From contig JAQDDS010000003.1 of NCBI GenBank assembly GCA_027665725.1, forward strand, positions 1-64,000: a stretch of 64,000 nt of DNA, read 5' to 3'. This DNA comes from Streptococcaceae bacterium AF77-01CM03A. GTDB lineage: Bacteria > Bacillota > Bacilli > Lactobacillales > Streptococcaceae. The position numbers were made by a program, and so were the translations under genes. Position 1 is the first letter of the stretch. The number at the start of each line of letters is the position of its first letter. The notes beneath the pieces were generated by a model, which ran no database searches, had not been told where the DNA came from, and was given only the letters and a program-made list of their open reading frames with translations. Below are positions 38,272-41,331 of this stretch, piece after piece.

Positions 38272-38289
38272 GAAAAATGAGATAAATCG

Positions 38290-38318
38290 TTGACTTTTAC
38301 TAGTTAAAGGTTTATACT
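38290..38318 (+). promoter_or_regulatory. Promoter of the mgtA leader
   Basis: TTGACT (38290-38295), a 17-nt spacer and TATACT (38313-38318), a near-consensus promoter directly upstream of the riboswitch. Confidence 0.85.
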
Positions 38319-38323
38319 GAAAG

Positions 38324-38470
38324 GCGAAAACGGTAGGTGAGGCTACCATAGGGATACGGATGACTACCGCAAAGCAGTGGAGACACTACTCGTTGGTCAA
38401 CAGTCCTGGTCGCGAAGGTCAAGACTAAGCTCATTACATCGCCCTATGGAGTTAAAGCTTGAACGAAAAC
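38324..38470 (+). promoter_or_regulatory. M-box (ykoK) Mg2+ riboswitch
   Basis: The leader contains the hallmark GGTAGGTGAGGCTACC (38332-38347). CATAGGG (38347-38353) pairs with CCCTATG (38442-38448), with conserved-looking joints GGTCAACAG (38394-38402) and GGAGTTAAAGCTTGAAC (38448-38464). This is the M-box class, which binds Mg2+ ions and ends transcription when Mg2+ is high. It lies before an Mg2+-type ATPase, as expected. AGTCCTG occurs both in the aptamer (38402-38408) and in the terminator's left arm, so the right arm has alternative partners. Confidence 0.9.
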
Positions 38471-38486
38471 AGATAATAAGTTTTTT

Positions 38487-38523
38487 AGTCCTGCCATTTT
38501 ATGGCAGGACTTTCTGCTGTTTT
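38487..38523 (+). terminator. Riboswitch expression-platform terminator
   Basis: AGTCCTGCCA (38487-38496) and TGGCAGGACT (38502-38511) form a perfect 10-bp stem with loop TTTTA, followed by TTCTGCTGTTTT, an interrupted T tract. It precedes the leader ORF and the ATPase gene. Confidence 0.85.
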
Positions 38524-38546
38524 AAAACAAAGAAAGGAGAAAAACG

Positions 38547-38618
38547 ATGCAAATTGACGACCATCCAGAACCGCACATACACAGCCAATCGCTGATTTGT
38601 GTCGTTTTGTCCTTATAA
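38547..38618 (+). CDS. Short leader ORF of mgtA (23 codons)
   Basis: ATG at 38547 with an excellent ribosome site, AAAGGAG (38533-38539, 7 nt away); stop TAA 38616-38618. The peptide starts MQIDDHPEPHIH and ends in a hydrophobic CVVLSL. The Asp-Asp-His-Pro-Glu-Pro run recalls the acidic and proline-rich MgtL leader peptides of enterobacterial mgtA, which make ribosomes stall or fall apart when Mg2+ is low. Complementary segments in and after the ORF (CCAATC 38585-38590 with GATTGG 38622-38627; ACACA 38579-38583 with TGTGT 38598-38602) exclude each other. That it is translated is inferred. Confidence 0.6.
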   Translation: MQIDDHPEPHIHSQSLICVVLSL

Positions 38619-38633
38619 AGTGATTGGTCCCTG

Positions 38634-38660
38634 TGTATGAAATTATCATTCATACAGATA
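38634..38660 (+). promoter_or_regulatory. Hairpin just before the mgtA ribosome site
   Basis: TATGAA (about 38636-38641) pairs with TTCATA (38649-38654), flanked by CTG and CAG that can extend the stem across a 2-nt bulge. It ends right before ATAGGAG, the Shine-Dalgarno sequence of the ATPase gene. Confidence 0.5.
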
Positions 38661-38670
38661 GGAGAAGCCA

Positions 38671-41331
38671 ATGAAAACTACAAAAGAAAGATTAGCAGCA
38701 GCTATTCAAACCCCATTTAAAGAGAGTCTAGTTTTTTACCATACAAGTCTAAAAGGTTTAGATTCAGAACAAGTCGAAGAAAACCGTGACCTATATGGTG
38801 AAAACACTATCACCAAGGGTCAAGAGGATTCCATCTTTAAGAAAATTTATGAGTCTATTATCAATCCCTTCACAATTATTTTGCTTGTAATTGCCTTTAT
38901 TTCTCTCGTTACAAACGTCTGGCTTGCCAAACCTGGCCAAGAAGACCCAACAACCTCTATCATTATTGTTGTCTTGGTTTTGATTTCAGGAGGTATCCGT
39001 TTTGTCCAAGAATTGCGGAGCGACAAGGCAACAACTAACCTTTCAAAAATGATTGTCAACACTGCAACTGTTATTCGTGATGGTCTTGAACAAGAGTTAC
39101 CCATCGATGAGTTGGTTGTGGGAGATCTCGTGAAATTAAGTGCGGGAGATATGATTCCAGCAGATGTCATCTTATTCGAATCGCGCGACTTTTTCGTTCA
39201 ACAGTCAGGTTTGACTGGAGAAAGTGATGCAGTTGAAAAGCTTGCTTTAAATAAAGCCACCAATCAAAATGTAGATAGCCTCTTAGAAGCAGAATCTTTG
39301 GCATTCATGGGGACAAACGTTATCTCAGGAAGTGCGACAGCTATGGTTCTAGCGGTTGGTGATGACACCATGATGGGAGCTATTGAGCAAACTCTCAACA
39401 CCTATGATGAGCCAACTTCTTTTGAACGTGAAATGAACAGCATTTCTTGGCTCTTGATCCGCTTGATGCTTGTCATGGTTCCGATTGTGTTTTTTGCAAA
39501 TGGTTTAACCGATGGAGATTGGCTAGAAGCGGGAGTGTTTGCCTTGAGCGTTGGTGTCGGACTGACACCAGAAATGCTGCCAATGATTATTACAGCCAGC
39601 TTAGCAAAAGGTTCCATTATCATGGCCAAGGAAAAGGTAGTCATCAAAAAACTCAATGCTATCCAGGACTTAGGAGCAATCGATATCCTTTGTACGGATA
39701 AAACTGGAACTTTAACGCAAGATGAGATTGTCTTAGAATACCCCTTGGATATCCATGGTGATTTGGATATGGCGGTCTTAAGAAGAGCTTATCTAAATTC
39801 ACATTTTCAAACAGGTTTGAAAAACTTGATGGACCGTGCCATCATCAGTAGAACTGAAAAAGAAGCCAAAGAACACGCTATCCTACAAAATCTCGATACC
39901 AGTTTCCAAAAAATCGACGAGCTTCCATTTGACTTTGAGCGCAGACGCATGAGTGTCATTGTCAAAGATGATAGCAATGTTGTTAGTATGGTGACCAAAG
40001 GCGCCTTGGAAGAAATGTTGACCATTTCGACACATGTGGAATATCGTGGAGAAGTCATCCCTCTTACTGAAGACATTCGTCAAGAAGTACTGGCAGAAGT
40101 TGGTCAATTAAACCGTCAAGGTTTACGTGTATTAGGTGTTGGTTACAAGTCAGGTCTACGTGAAGATTATGCCTATGCTGTGACTGATGAAAGTGACATG
40201 ATCCTTACAGGTTACCTTGCCTTTTTGGATCCACCAAAACCATCTGCAGCACCCGCTATTCAAGCTCTACTTGAGCATGGTGTCAAAACAAAAATTTTAA
40301 CTGGAGATAACGAGAAAGTAACCCAAGCTATCTGTGAAAAGGTTGGATTGGACGTTGAGCATATGCTCTTAGGTGCTGACATTGATCAAATGACAGACCA
40401 AGAATTGGCAGAAGCGGTTGAAAGTGTAACAGTCTTTGCCAAATTGTCTCCTGACCAAAAAGCTCGAATTATTCTACAATTGAAGAAAAATGGTCATGGT
40501 GTTGGTTATATGGGAGATGGTATTAACGATGCTCCATCTATGAAAGTGGCAGATGTTGGAATTTCCGTTGATACGGCAGTAGATATCGCAAAGGAAACAG
40601 CGGATGTTATCTTGCTAGACAAGGATCTCATGGTTCTTGAAACAGGTATCGTTGAAGGCCGGAAGGTCTACGCCAACATGACCAAATACATCAAGATGAC
40701 CGTTAGTTCAAACTTTGGGAATATCTTCTCACTATTGGTTGCAAGTATTTTCTTGCCATTTTTACCAATGGCTCCTGTTCATCTCATTGTCCTAAACCTA
40801 GTCTACGATTTATCTTGTGTGGCATTGCCGTTTGATAACGTGGATCAAGACTTCCTAAAACAACCTCATACATGGGAAGCAAAATCTATTACGCGATTTA
40901 TGGTTTGGATGGGTCCAATCTCATCTATCTTTGACATTTTGACCTTTATTTTCCTCTACTTTATCATTGTTCCTTTGGTGACAGGTCACCATTATGTTCA
41001 TGGGTCAGAATCTGCCCTTCAGTTTATTATCTTGTTCCAAACAGGATGGTTCATCGAATCTATGTGGTCTCAAACCATGGTCATCCATATGCTTCGTACA
41101 GCAAAAGTTCCTTTTGTACAAAGCAGACCAGCTTGGCTTGTGATTTTTATGACTCTTATTGCAGCCTTTTTCGTAACCAGTCTACCTTATGGACCGCTAG
41201 TAAATATACTTCGTTTAGCACCGTTAGGACTTCCTTACTTCTTGTTCTTAATCTGTATTATTTTCTTGTACATGTTTAGCGTCACAGTTATTAAGAAATG
41301 TTACATTAGGAAGTACAAAGAATGGTTATAG
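38671..41331 (+). CDS. mgtA: MgtA-type magnesium-transporting P-type ATPase
   Basis: An 886-residue P3B ATPase. It has an N-terminal cytoplasmic region, QSGLTGESD in the actuator domain (~182), phosphorylation site LCTDKTGTLT (Asp ~343), hinge GDGINDAPSMKVADVGISVDTAVD (~625-648), and MgtA-like last helices with PHLIVLNLVYD-type sequence. The hydrophobic core and length match MgtA/MgtB importers. The M-box leader strongly supports Mg2+ as substrate; some streptococcal P-type ATPases with a yybP-ykoY leader export Mn2+, but that leader is not seen here. GGAGAAGCCA precedes the ATG. Confidence 0.93.
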   Translation: MKTTKERLAAAIQTPFKESLVFYHTSLKGLDSEQVEENRDLYGENTITKGQEDSIFKKIYESIINPFTIILLVIAFISLVTNVWLAKPGQEDPTTSIIIVVLVLISGGIRFVQELRSDKATTNLSKMIVNTATVIRDGLEQELPIDELVVGDLVKLSAGDMIPADVILFESRDFFVQQSGLTGESDAVEKLALNKATNQNVDSLLEAESLAFMGTNVISGSATAMVLAVGDDTMMGAIEQTLNTYDEPTSFEREMNSISWLLIRLMLVMVPIVFFANGLTDGDWLEAGVFALSVGVGLTPEMLPMIITASLAKGSIIMAKEKVVIKKLNAIQDLGAIDILCTDKTGTLTQDEIVLEYPLDIHGDLDMAVLRRAYLNSHFQTGLKNLMDRAIISRTEKEAKEHAILQNLDTSFQKIDELPFDFERRRMSVIVKDDSNVVSMVTKGALEEMLTISTHVEYRGEVIPLTEDIRQEVLAEVGQLNRQGLRVLGVGYKSGLREDYAYAVTDESDMILTGYLAFLDPPKPSAAPAIQALLEHGVKTKILTGDNEKVTQAICEKVGLDVEHMLLGADIDQMTDQELAEAVESVTVFAKLSPDQKARIILQLKKNGHGVGYMGDGINDAPSMKVADVGISVDTAVDIAKETADVILLDKDLMVLETGIVEGRKVYANMTKYIKMTVSSNFGNIFSLLVASIFLPFLPMAPVHLIVLNLVYDLSCVALPFDNVDQDFLKQPHTWEAKSITRFMVWMGPISSIFDILTFIFLYFIIVPLVTGHHYVHGSESALQFIILFQTGWFIESMWSQTMVIHMLRTAKVPFVQSRPAWLVIFMTLIAAFFVTSLPYGPLVNILRLAPLGLPYFLFLICIIFLYMFSVTVIKKCYIRKYKEWL

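Follow-up and report, generated by a model that had tools for sequence, protein, structure and literature searches.

Does the leader of a magnesium pump gene in a streptococcal genome read Mg2+ twice, once through a riboswitch and once through the ribosome that translates a leader peptide? The question arises from the window, i.e., the whole stretch of 64,000 nucleotides from Streptococcaceae bacterium AF77-01CM03A that was analyzed, in which a preliminary description had placed a good promoter, an M-box, a terminator, and a 23-codon open reading frame (ORF) with a near-perfect ribosome site upstream of a Mg2+ ATPase gene.

Anatomy of the mgtA leader

All features of this leader lie on the forward (+) strand. 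The downstream gene (38,671 to 41,331) is mgtA, as had been described: It encodes a Mg2+-translocating P-type ATPase (type IIIB) of 886 amino acids that matched TIGR01524 with 1078.8 bits, which exceeds the cut-off of 610.75. The proposed M-box was borne out by a full-model match to RF00380 at 38,325 to 38,478 (84.8 bits, above the gathering score of 44), corresponding to the aptamer of an M-box (ykoK) Mg2+ riboswitch. Upstream of it, a consensus scan located a promoter-like site, TTGACT-17-TATACT (38,290 to 38,318; 10 of 12 matches), a kind of site that occurred 6 times per 1201 bases compared to 3.3 times in shuffled sequences; the gene before the promoter is peptidase-like (its best NCBIfam match is PepQ, under the PepQ cut-off). 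Behind the aptamer, an 11-bp hairpin read from the sequence (38,487 to 38,511) is the probable terminator of the M-box expression platform. A simple terminator scan listed none at 38,487 to 38,511, missing the hairpin because the T-run after it is loose and weak. The description of a promoter and a terminator thus holds in the qualified form of a promoter-like site and a hairpin with only a loose T-run.

The leader ORF, MQIDDHPEPHIHSQSLICVVLSL, was found in the list of open reading frames at 38,547 to 38,618 with the expected 23 codons, preceded by the Shine-Dalgarno (SD) sequence AAAGGAG at 38,533 to 38,539, in agreement with the near-perfect ribosome site that had been ascribed to it. Its codons 3 to 9 (38,553 to 38,573), which encode IDDHPEP, constitute an acidic/proline core that is delimited by coding selection on the mgtA tree (see below). 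The SD of mgtA itself, AGGAG, is located at 38,660 to 38,664. An M-box and an ORF with acidic residues and prolines do, as claimed, share a single leader 5′ of mgtA. The 184 nucleotides from 38,522 to 38,705 folded with −41.1 kcal/mol, compared to a mean of −27.9 kcal/mol for shuffled sequences (z = −3.79; 1 of 200 shuffles was as good). Since this folding beats the shuffles and since the ORF is conserved under coding selection, the leader is not a product of chance.

The complementary pairs that had been read as exclusive stems, CCAATC (38,585 to 38,590) with GATTGG (38,622 to 38,627) and ACACA with TGTGT, are present in the leader, as is a hairpin that ends immediately 5′ of the mgtA SD; the strongest predicted stems refine this picture into three. 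In stem 1:2 (38,534 to 38,614), the leader start region (38,534 to 38,560) pairs with the ORF end (38,589 to 38,614) at a predicted −22.0 kcal/mol. Stem 2:3, the antisequestrator (38,576 to 38,639), which holds CCAATC/GATTGG, joins the ORF end (38,576 to 38,601) to sequence past the stop codon (38,614 to 38,639) at a predicted −23.3 kcal/mol. Stem 3:4, the sequestrator (38,621 to 38,674), pairs 38,621 to 38,641 with 38,649 to 38,674 at a predicted −16.1 kcal/mol and would cover both the SD and the start codon of mgtA. As predicted, these stems are mutually exclusive, with stem 2:3 competing against the combination of 1:2 and 3:4, and in the full-length RNA without ribosomes, 1:2 and 3:4 are predicted to form together. 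A further candidate, an anti-SD in the last leader codons (TCCTTAT versus ATAGGA), was dropped; relatives have CCCTTAT at this position.

Coding selection in the ORF and covariation in the stems

The leader DNA (38,280 to 38,720) matched, in whole or in part, 148 of the 284 Streptococcus genomes that were searched. The set of related loci consisted of the best 80 of 217 loci encoding an MgtA relative and spans the Mitis group, S. sanguinis, S. parasanguinis, S. vestibularis, S. intermedius, S. massiliensis, and Abiotrophia, the leader peptide of the latter being MPNADSEPILRPKPEYRSQGAEHALVWLFG. Among these best 80 of 217, M-box similarity upstream of mgtA was detected by blastn at every locus (80 of 80), and an ORF with an SD-like site at 79, where the sole exception (L064) has Ns at the ORF position. 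The peptide measured 18 to 32 residues, except for 47 residues in L073.

Counting changes along the mgtA tree, we obtained 30 synonymous versus 3 nonsynonymous changes in codons 3 to 9, where a synonymous fraction of ~0.26 would be expected without selection (binomial p = 8e-15), compared to 9 synonymous versus 34 nonsynonymous changes in codons 10 to 20. The count used 76 of 81 sequences; the omission of the other five (L064, with Ns, and L101, L103, L105, and L110, which are without IDD[HY][PT]EP) favors the coding result, but four divergent lineages could not cancel an excess that large. From the difference between the two parts of the ORF, it follows that the acidic/proline core is under coding selection, which is confined to this core. 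The preliminary description had proposed, as a test, that the ORF and its ribosome site persist among relatives and that the Asp/Pro/Glu codons are kept while their third positions vary, and this is what the 79 loci and the counts in the core display. Pro7, Glu8, and Pro9 fall outside the stems predicted for the window, with amino acids kept and third positions varying, so that these stems cannot explain their conservation; in some relatives, e.g., L053, the free fold pairs part of codons 8 to 10.

Outside the core, the leader looks like RNA, with compensatory changes in stems 1:2 and 2:3. When 29 leaders chosen by hand were aligned, 6 of the 19 pairs of stem 1:2 had changed on both sides, with 91.1% of cells paired, and the 10-pair core of stem 2:3 had 2 such pairs, with 97.6% paired. 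For both stems, nearly all measures exceeded the shuffled and slid controls, an excess of a kind that related sequences alone can give. Stem 3:4 had 89.6% of cells paired, and its covariation was not clearly above that of shuffles. Parasanguinis-type leaders carry a short anti-SD/SD hairpin in place of the long 3:4 hairpin, and two divergent leaders (L103 and L110) are predicted to form a stem equivalent to 1:2 from a markedly different sequence.

Insertions occur within some of these leaders. At 7 of the 80 loci (best 80 of 217; L033, L038, L042, L046, L048, L050, and L109, at about 1364 to 1462), a repeat-like insertion (~106 nt, inverted ends) separates segments 3 and 4, with the short hairpin by the mgtA SD retained. 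At 1248 to 1500 of L073, the altered leader RNA past codon 9 includes another repeat-like insertion, and visual inspection suggests that the mgtA SD could be paired by a new hairpin.

Recurrence before mgtA in other Bacilli

From 246 Lactobacillales genomes that were searched with MgtA, 60 upstream regions were hand-picked for spread, 53 of which contained an M-box inside the fetched stretch. By a fixed rule, an ORF with an SD occurred at 41 of the 60 loci (shuffles: mean 10.4, maximum 21) and an acidic ORF before mgtA at 29 (shuffles: mean 1.84, maximum 6); the other 31 of 60 had no acidic ORF by this rule, which overlooks some ORFs, e.g., those of L158 and L197. Typical starts of these ORFs are MDDSSS, MEDSS, MDESP, MDHPAPE, and MEHPSPS, and in others, the acidic/proline run comes later, as in MPQFLEDDPAEPESS. 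At loci from other families of the class, 6 of 8 had an ORF before mgtA (MDDSSSS, MEDGHS, MEGSPS, MDSSPS), and the same 6 carried an M-box as well as a hairpin with a T-run after the ORF. Two of these 6 count as acidic by the fixed rule, a tally that leaves out L241 and L242, where neither ORF nor M-box was detected. In folding predictions for the six, a ribosome on some early codons lowered the terminator probability at three loci (L248, L249, and L251), at two of which (L248 and L251) a ribosome on some later codons lowered it as well; at the other three (L245, L246, and L250), an early-codon ribosome did not lower it. Hence, the combined leader that had been described for streptococci does occur there but is not restricted to them.

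The link to mgtA was apparent from M-box leaders whose downstream gene does not encode a P-type ATPase, as none of them (0 of 23) had an acidic ORF by the fixed rule, in a control where many loci came from related genomes and the stretches were shorter (mean of 176 nt, over 24 loci) than in the mgtA set (280 nt). Of 36 loci, 24 had given a usable downstream gene, and L221 was removed from these as its downstream gene encodes a remote P-type ATPase (27% identity across 131 residues). Furthermore, at four loci (L155, L165, L169, and L170), 1.56 to 2.08 kb separate the M-box from the downstream mgtA match, yet the acidic ORF immediately precedes mgtA. As the ORF accompanies mgtA even when the M-box is distant, its position indicates that it belongs to mgtA and not to the M-box.

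A spacing of ~780 nt between the M-box match and the leader region was also seen at 8 of the 80 loci (best 80 of 217), which are of the S. sanguinis/cristatus type. All three of these that were read (L072, L077, and L093) contain a gene in between, and the one in L093 (732 to 1340) matches glutathione S-transferase N-terminal domains. Located between the M-box and the mgtA leader ORF, this glutathione S-transferase–like gene is, for that reason, probably under M-box control.

Individual loci displayed further elements. In L215, a frame containing FNDDDAEPPHSS follows an M-box before a non-mgtA gene; if this frame is a further acidic leader, as it may be, the restriction of such leaders to mgtA would hold less well. 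Two tandem M-box aptamers precede mgtA in L154 (272 to 785), and the M-box leader of L149, an Abiotrophia-type locus, has a yjdF (azaaromatic) riboswitch on its upstream side (1030 to 1131). In L170 and L174, a hydrophobic stretch of ~30 codons (such as MKTLGEFVLFLGIGILLWRMFIGEKEEK) was noted by eye, in frame with mgtA and between the leader ORF and the start that we used; mgtA may start earlier in these two, with an extra membrane segment.

A candidate second Mg2+ sensor and its known relatives

To what extent a ribosome on the leader ORF could control mgtA was evaluated by computing the accessibility of the mgtA start. Masking the leader start and first codons raised it in 62 of 63 distinct leaders (the exception being L105), by at least 0.05 in 58 of the 63, and from 0.31 to 0.53 in the window; identical leaders, those with long insertions, and those without an ORF were left out of this set. 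In a scan with a single ribosome, the window opened at Asp5 only (0.31 to 0.47), i.e., there was almost no early opening, and with footprints of +10 to +14, there was none. A ribosome at the last codons opened the mgtA start as well in the model (0.67). Five relatives (L078, L085, L092, L103, and L107) opened with a ribosome at or before the DDHPE codons and closed right after. Among 37 hand-chosen loci, 18 opened more for early than for middle codons, compared to 3 to 7 in eight shuffled sets, and 7 showed the reverse order, compared to 10 to 19; the value for the window in this comparison was 0.00. In a transcript ending before region 4, stem 2:3 formed with a ribosome at codons 4 to 6 and not at codons 8, 10, 14, or 18, and such an unfinished transcript formed it without any ribosome too. 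Because a last-codon ribosome also opens the start and because 2:3 forms ribosome-free, folding alone cannot fix the direction of the effect, and for the window in particular, folding gives a weak model. A general rule by which opening of the RNA coincides exactly with the D/E/P codons was set aside as weakly supported (peptide-swap null, p = 0.025, over 43 hand-chosen loci with related sequences). In two related loci from another genus (L150 and L151), the DDHPE motif lies near the C terminus, and in L150, the one of the two that was scanned, the modeled open window lies there as well, a single case.

We consider it probable that mgtA is under two Mg2+ sensors in series, namely the M-box and, after it, an mgtQ-like sensor that is based on the ribosome and acts at the level of translation. 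At high Mg2+, the M-box would end transcription early, judging from the M-box family. A transcript that is read through would carry the leader ORF, with IDDHPEP encoded near its start. When Mg2+ is sufficient, ribosomes would pass the core and the ORF end, or leave the ORF and let stem 1:2 form, upon which stem 3:4 would shut the mgtA SD and start codon, such that mgtA would be little translated. At low Mg2+, the Asp-Asp-His-Pro-Glu-Pro codons would make ribosomes pause or drop off before these have cleared region 1; region 2 would then pair with region 3, region 4 with the mgtA SD would be freed, and mgtA would be translated. We infer that the ORF is translated, that ribosomes on it are unstable in a Mg2+-dependent manner, and that the effect runs in this direction.

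Other explanations would retain parts of this arrangement. The ORF might be translated and the same stems might control mgtA while the signal is, e.g., charged tRNA for proline or histidine, and not Mg2+ via ribosome stability. The Mitis-group peptide does have three His and two Pro in codons 6 to 12, and Salmonella mgtP responds to charged tRNA-Pro (PMC8092293, partial text), but we regard this option as unlikely: His10 and His12 are not conserved (3 and 6 nonsynonymous changes, respectively, and 0 synonymous), and several other Lactobacillales peptides (MDDSSSRQLG, MDDSSQMIKG) are without early Pro or His, whereas acidic residues recur. It also appears very unlikely that the RNA alone matters, with the stems acting as a constitutive or otherwise triggered gate and the frame being a by-product of conserved pairing. 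Codons 10 to 20 are indeed largely in stems and show no amino acid conservation, and the two ends of the ORF are complementary to each other in some lineages, so that part of the N-terminal conservation may stem from pairing. Against this stand the excess of synonymous changes in the core, the retention of MQIDDHPEP in L073, where much of the RNA 3′ of codon 9 differs and an insertion follows, and the parasanguinis group, where an extra codon shifts the start while IDDHPEP and an SD are retained.

Equally improbable, in our estimation, is an ORF that is translated and represses or couples mgtA translation at all Mg2+ levels, with an acidic start that limits its own output and no sensing. The anatomy alone is compatible with such coupling, as is the modeled opening of the mgtA start by a ribosome that terminates; the tie to the Mg2+ pump as opposed to other M-box genes would, however, be left unexplained. 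We give hardly any credence to a role of the peptide in trans, as a small protein that targets the MgtA pump: Mg2+ transporters do have small regulators such as MgtR and MgtU (PMC8092293, partial text), but only residues 3 to 9 of the peptide are under coding selection, and the remainder varies in sequence and length.

In titles and abstracts of the literature, with most subscription journals outside coverage, we found no description of an acidic mgtA leader in Gram-positives, which accords with the earlier statement that no combined leader was known from streptococci. The main text of an S. pneumoniae ribosome-profiling paper, as far as it was available, mentions neither mgtA nor magnesium (PMC9426450).

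The series of an M-box and a ribosome-based sensor thus is the reading that we prefer for the window. With less assurance, we lean toward seeing in it a widespread, undescribed class in Bacilli, in which acidic leader-peptide attenuators lie before mgtA behind an M-box and Mg2+ would be read twice, by the aptamer and by the stability of the translating ribosome. As the output, Lactobacillales would sequester the SD, whereas some other families would use an intrinsic terminator located past the ORF, and the origin of these attenuators would be independent of enterobacterial MgtL/MgtQ. How acidic residues early in a peptide destabilize the ribosome has been elucidated in enterobacteria. If the proposal is true, bacteria would have repeatedly used the ribosome's own Mg2+ need as a sensor, here stacked on a riboswitch. 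Two questions thereby become testable: do ribosomes of Gram-positives drop off such sequences when Mg2+ is low, and why does one gene need two Mg2+ sensors?

To our knowledge, a standard M-box carries no leader ORF, and the MgtL leader has no M-box. With the M-box (ykoK) riboswitch family RF00380, the leader shares a full-model aptamer and a hairpin behind it, and it differs from the standard M-box in the second predicted control layer that follows. An M-box followed by conserved small ORF(s) is also found at pe20 of Mycobacterium tuberculosis (uORF rv1805A), where the M-box controls the uORF via the uORF's SD together with Rho termination and the role of the peptide is undescribed (PMC12810186, partial text). 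The ORF studied here differs from that arrangement in lying between the M-box and mgtA and in its acidic/proline core; the words mgtL, leader peptide, and Streptococcus are absent from the available text of PMC12810186.

Both enterobacterial MgtL and mgtQ act through early acidic residues (PMC11282234 and PMC8092293, partial texts). The resemblance to MgtL that had been pointed out stands for the peptide, as a short leader ORF with early acidic residues and prolines precedes mgtA in both cases (EPDP there, IDDHPEP here), but not for the mechanism: MgtL needs a Rho-dependent terminator (PMC11282234, partial text), and Rho_RNA_bind (PF07497) had no match in any of 59 Streptococcus genomes but did in 9 of 14 control genomes. 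Since MgtL acts through Rho, the leader cannot work exactly like it, and a Rho-type mechanism was rejected for Streptococcus. The layout is instead that of Salmonella mgtQ-mgtB, where translation of a Mg2+ transporter is governed by the codons for Asp2 and Glu5 and by the choice between stems 1:2 plus 3:4 and stem 2:3 (PMC8092293, partial text). There, too, a short ORF with a strong SD and early Asp/Glu lies before a Mg2+ P-type ATPase, and the ribosome site of the transporter lies in stem 3:4; in the window and its relatives, this stem layout is found by prediction, with 1:2 and 2:3, and not 3:4, backed by compensatory changes. Whereas the 8-codon mgtQ is flanked by mgtC and mgtB within an operon under PhoP control (PMC8092293, partial text), a position that the locus in the window does not share, the ORF here has 23 codons and lies behind an M-box riboswitch, directly upstream of mgtA, in Bacilli. 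Overall, among the known systems, Salmonella mgtQ-mgtB comes closest to the anatomy of this leader.
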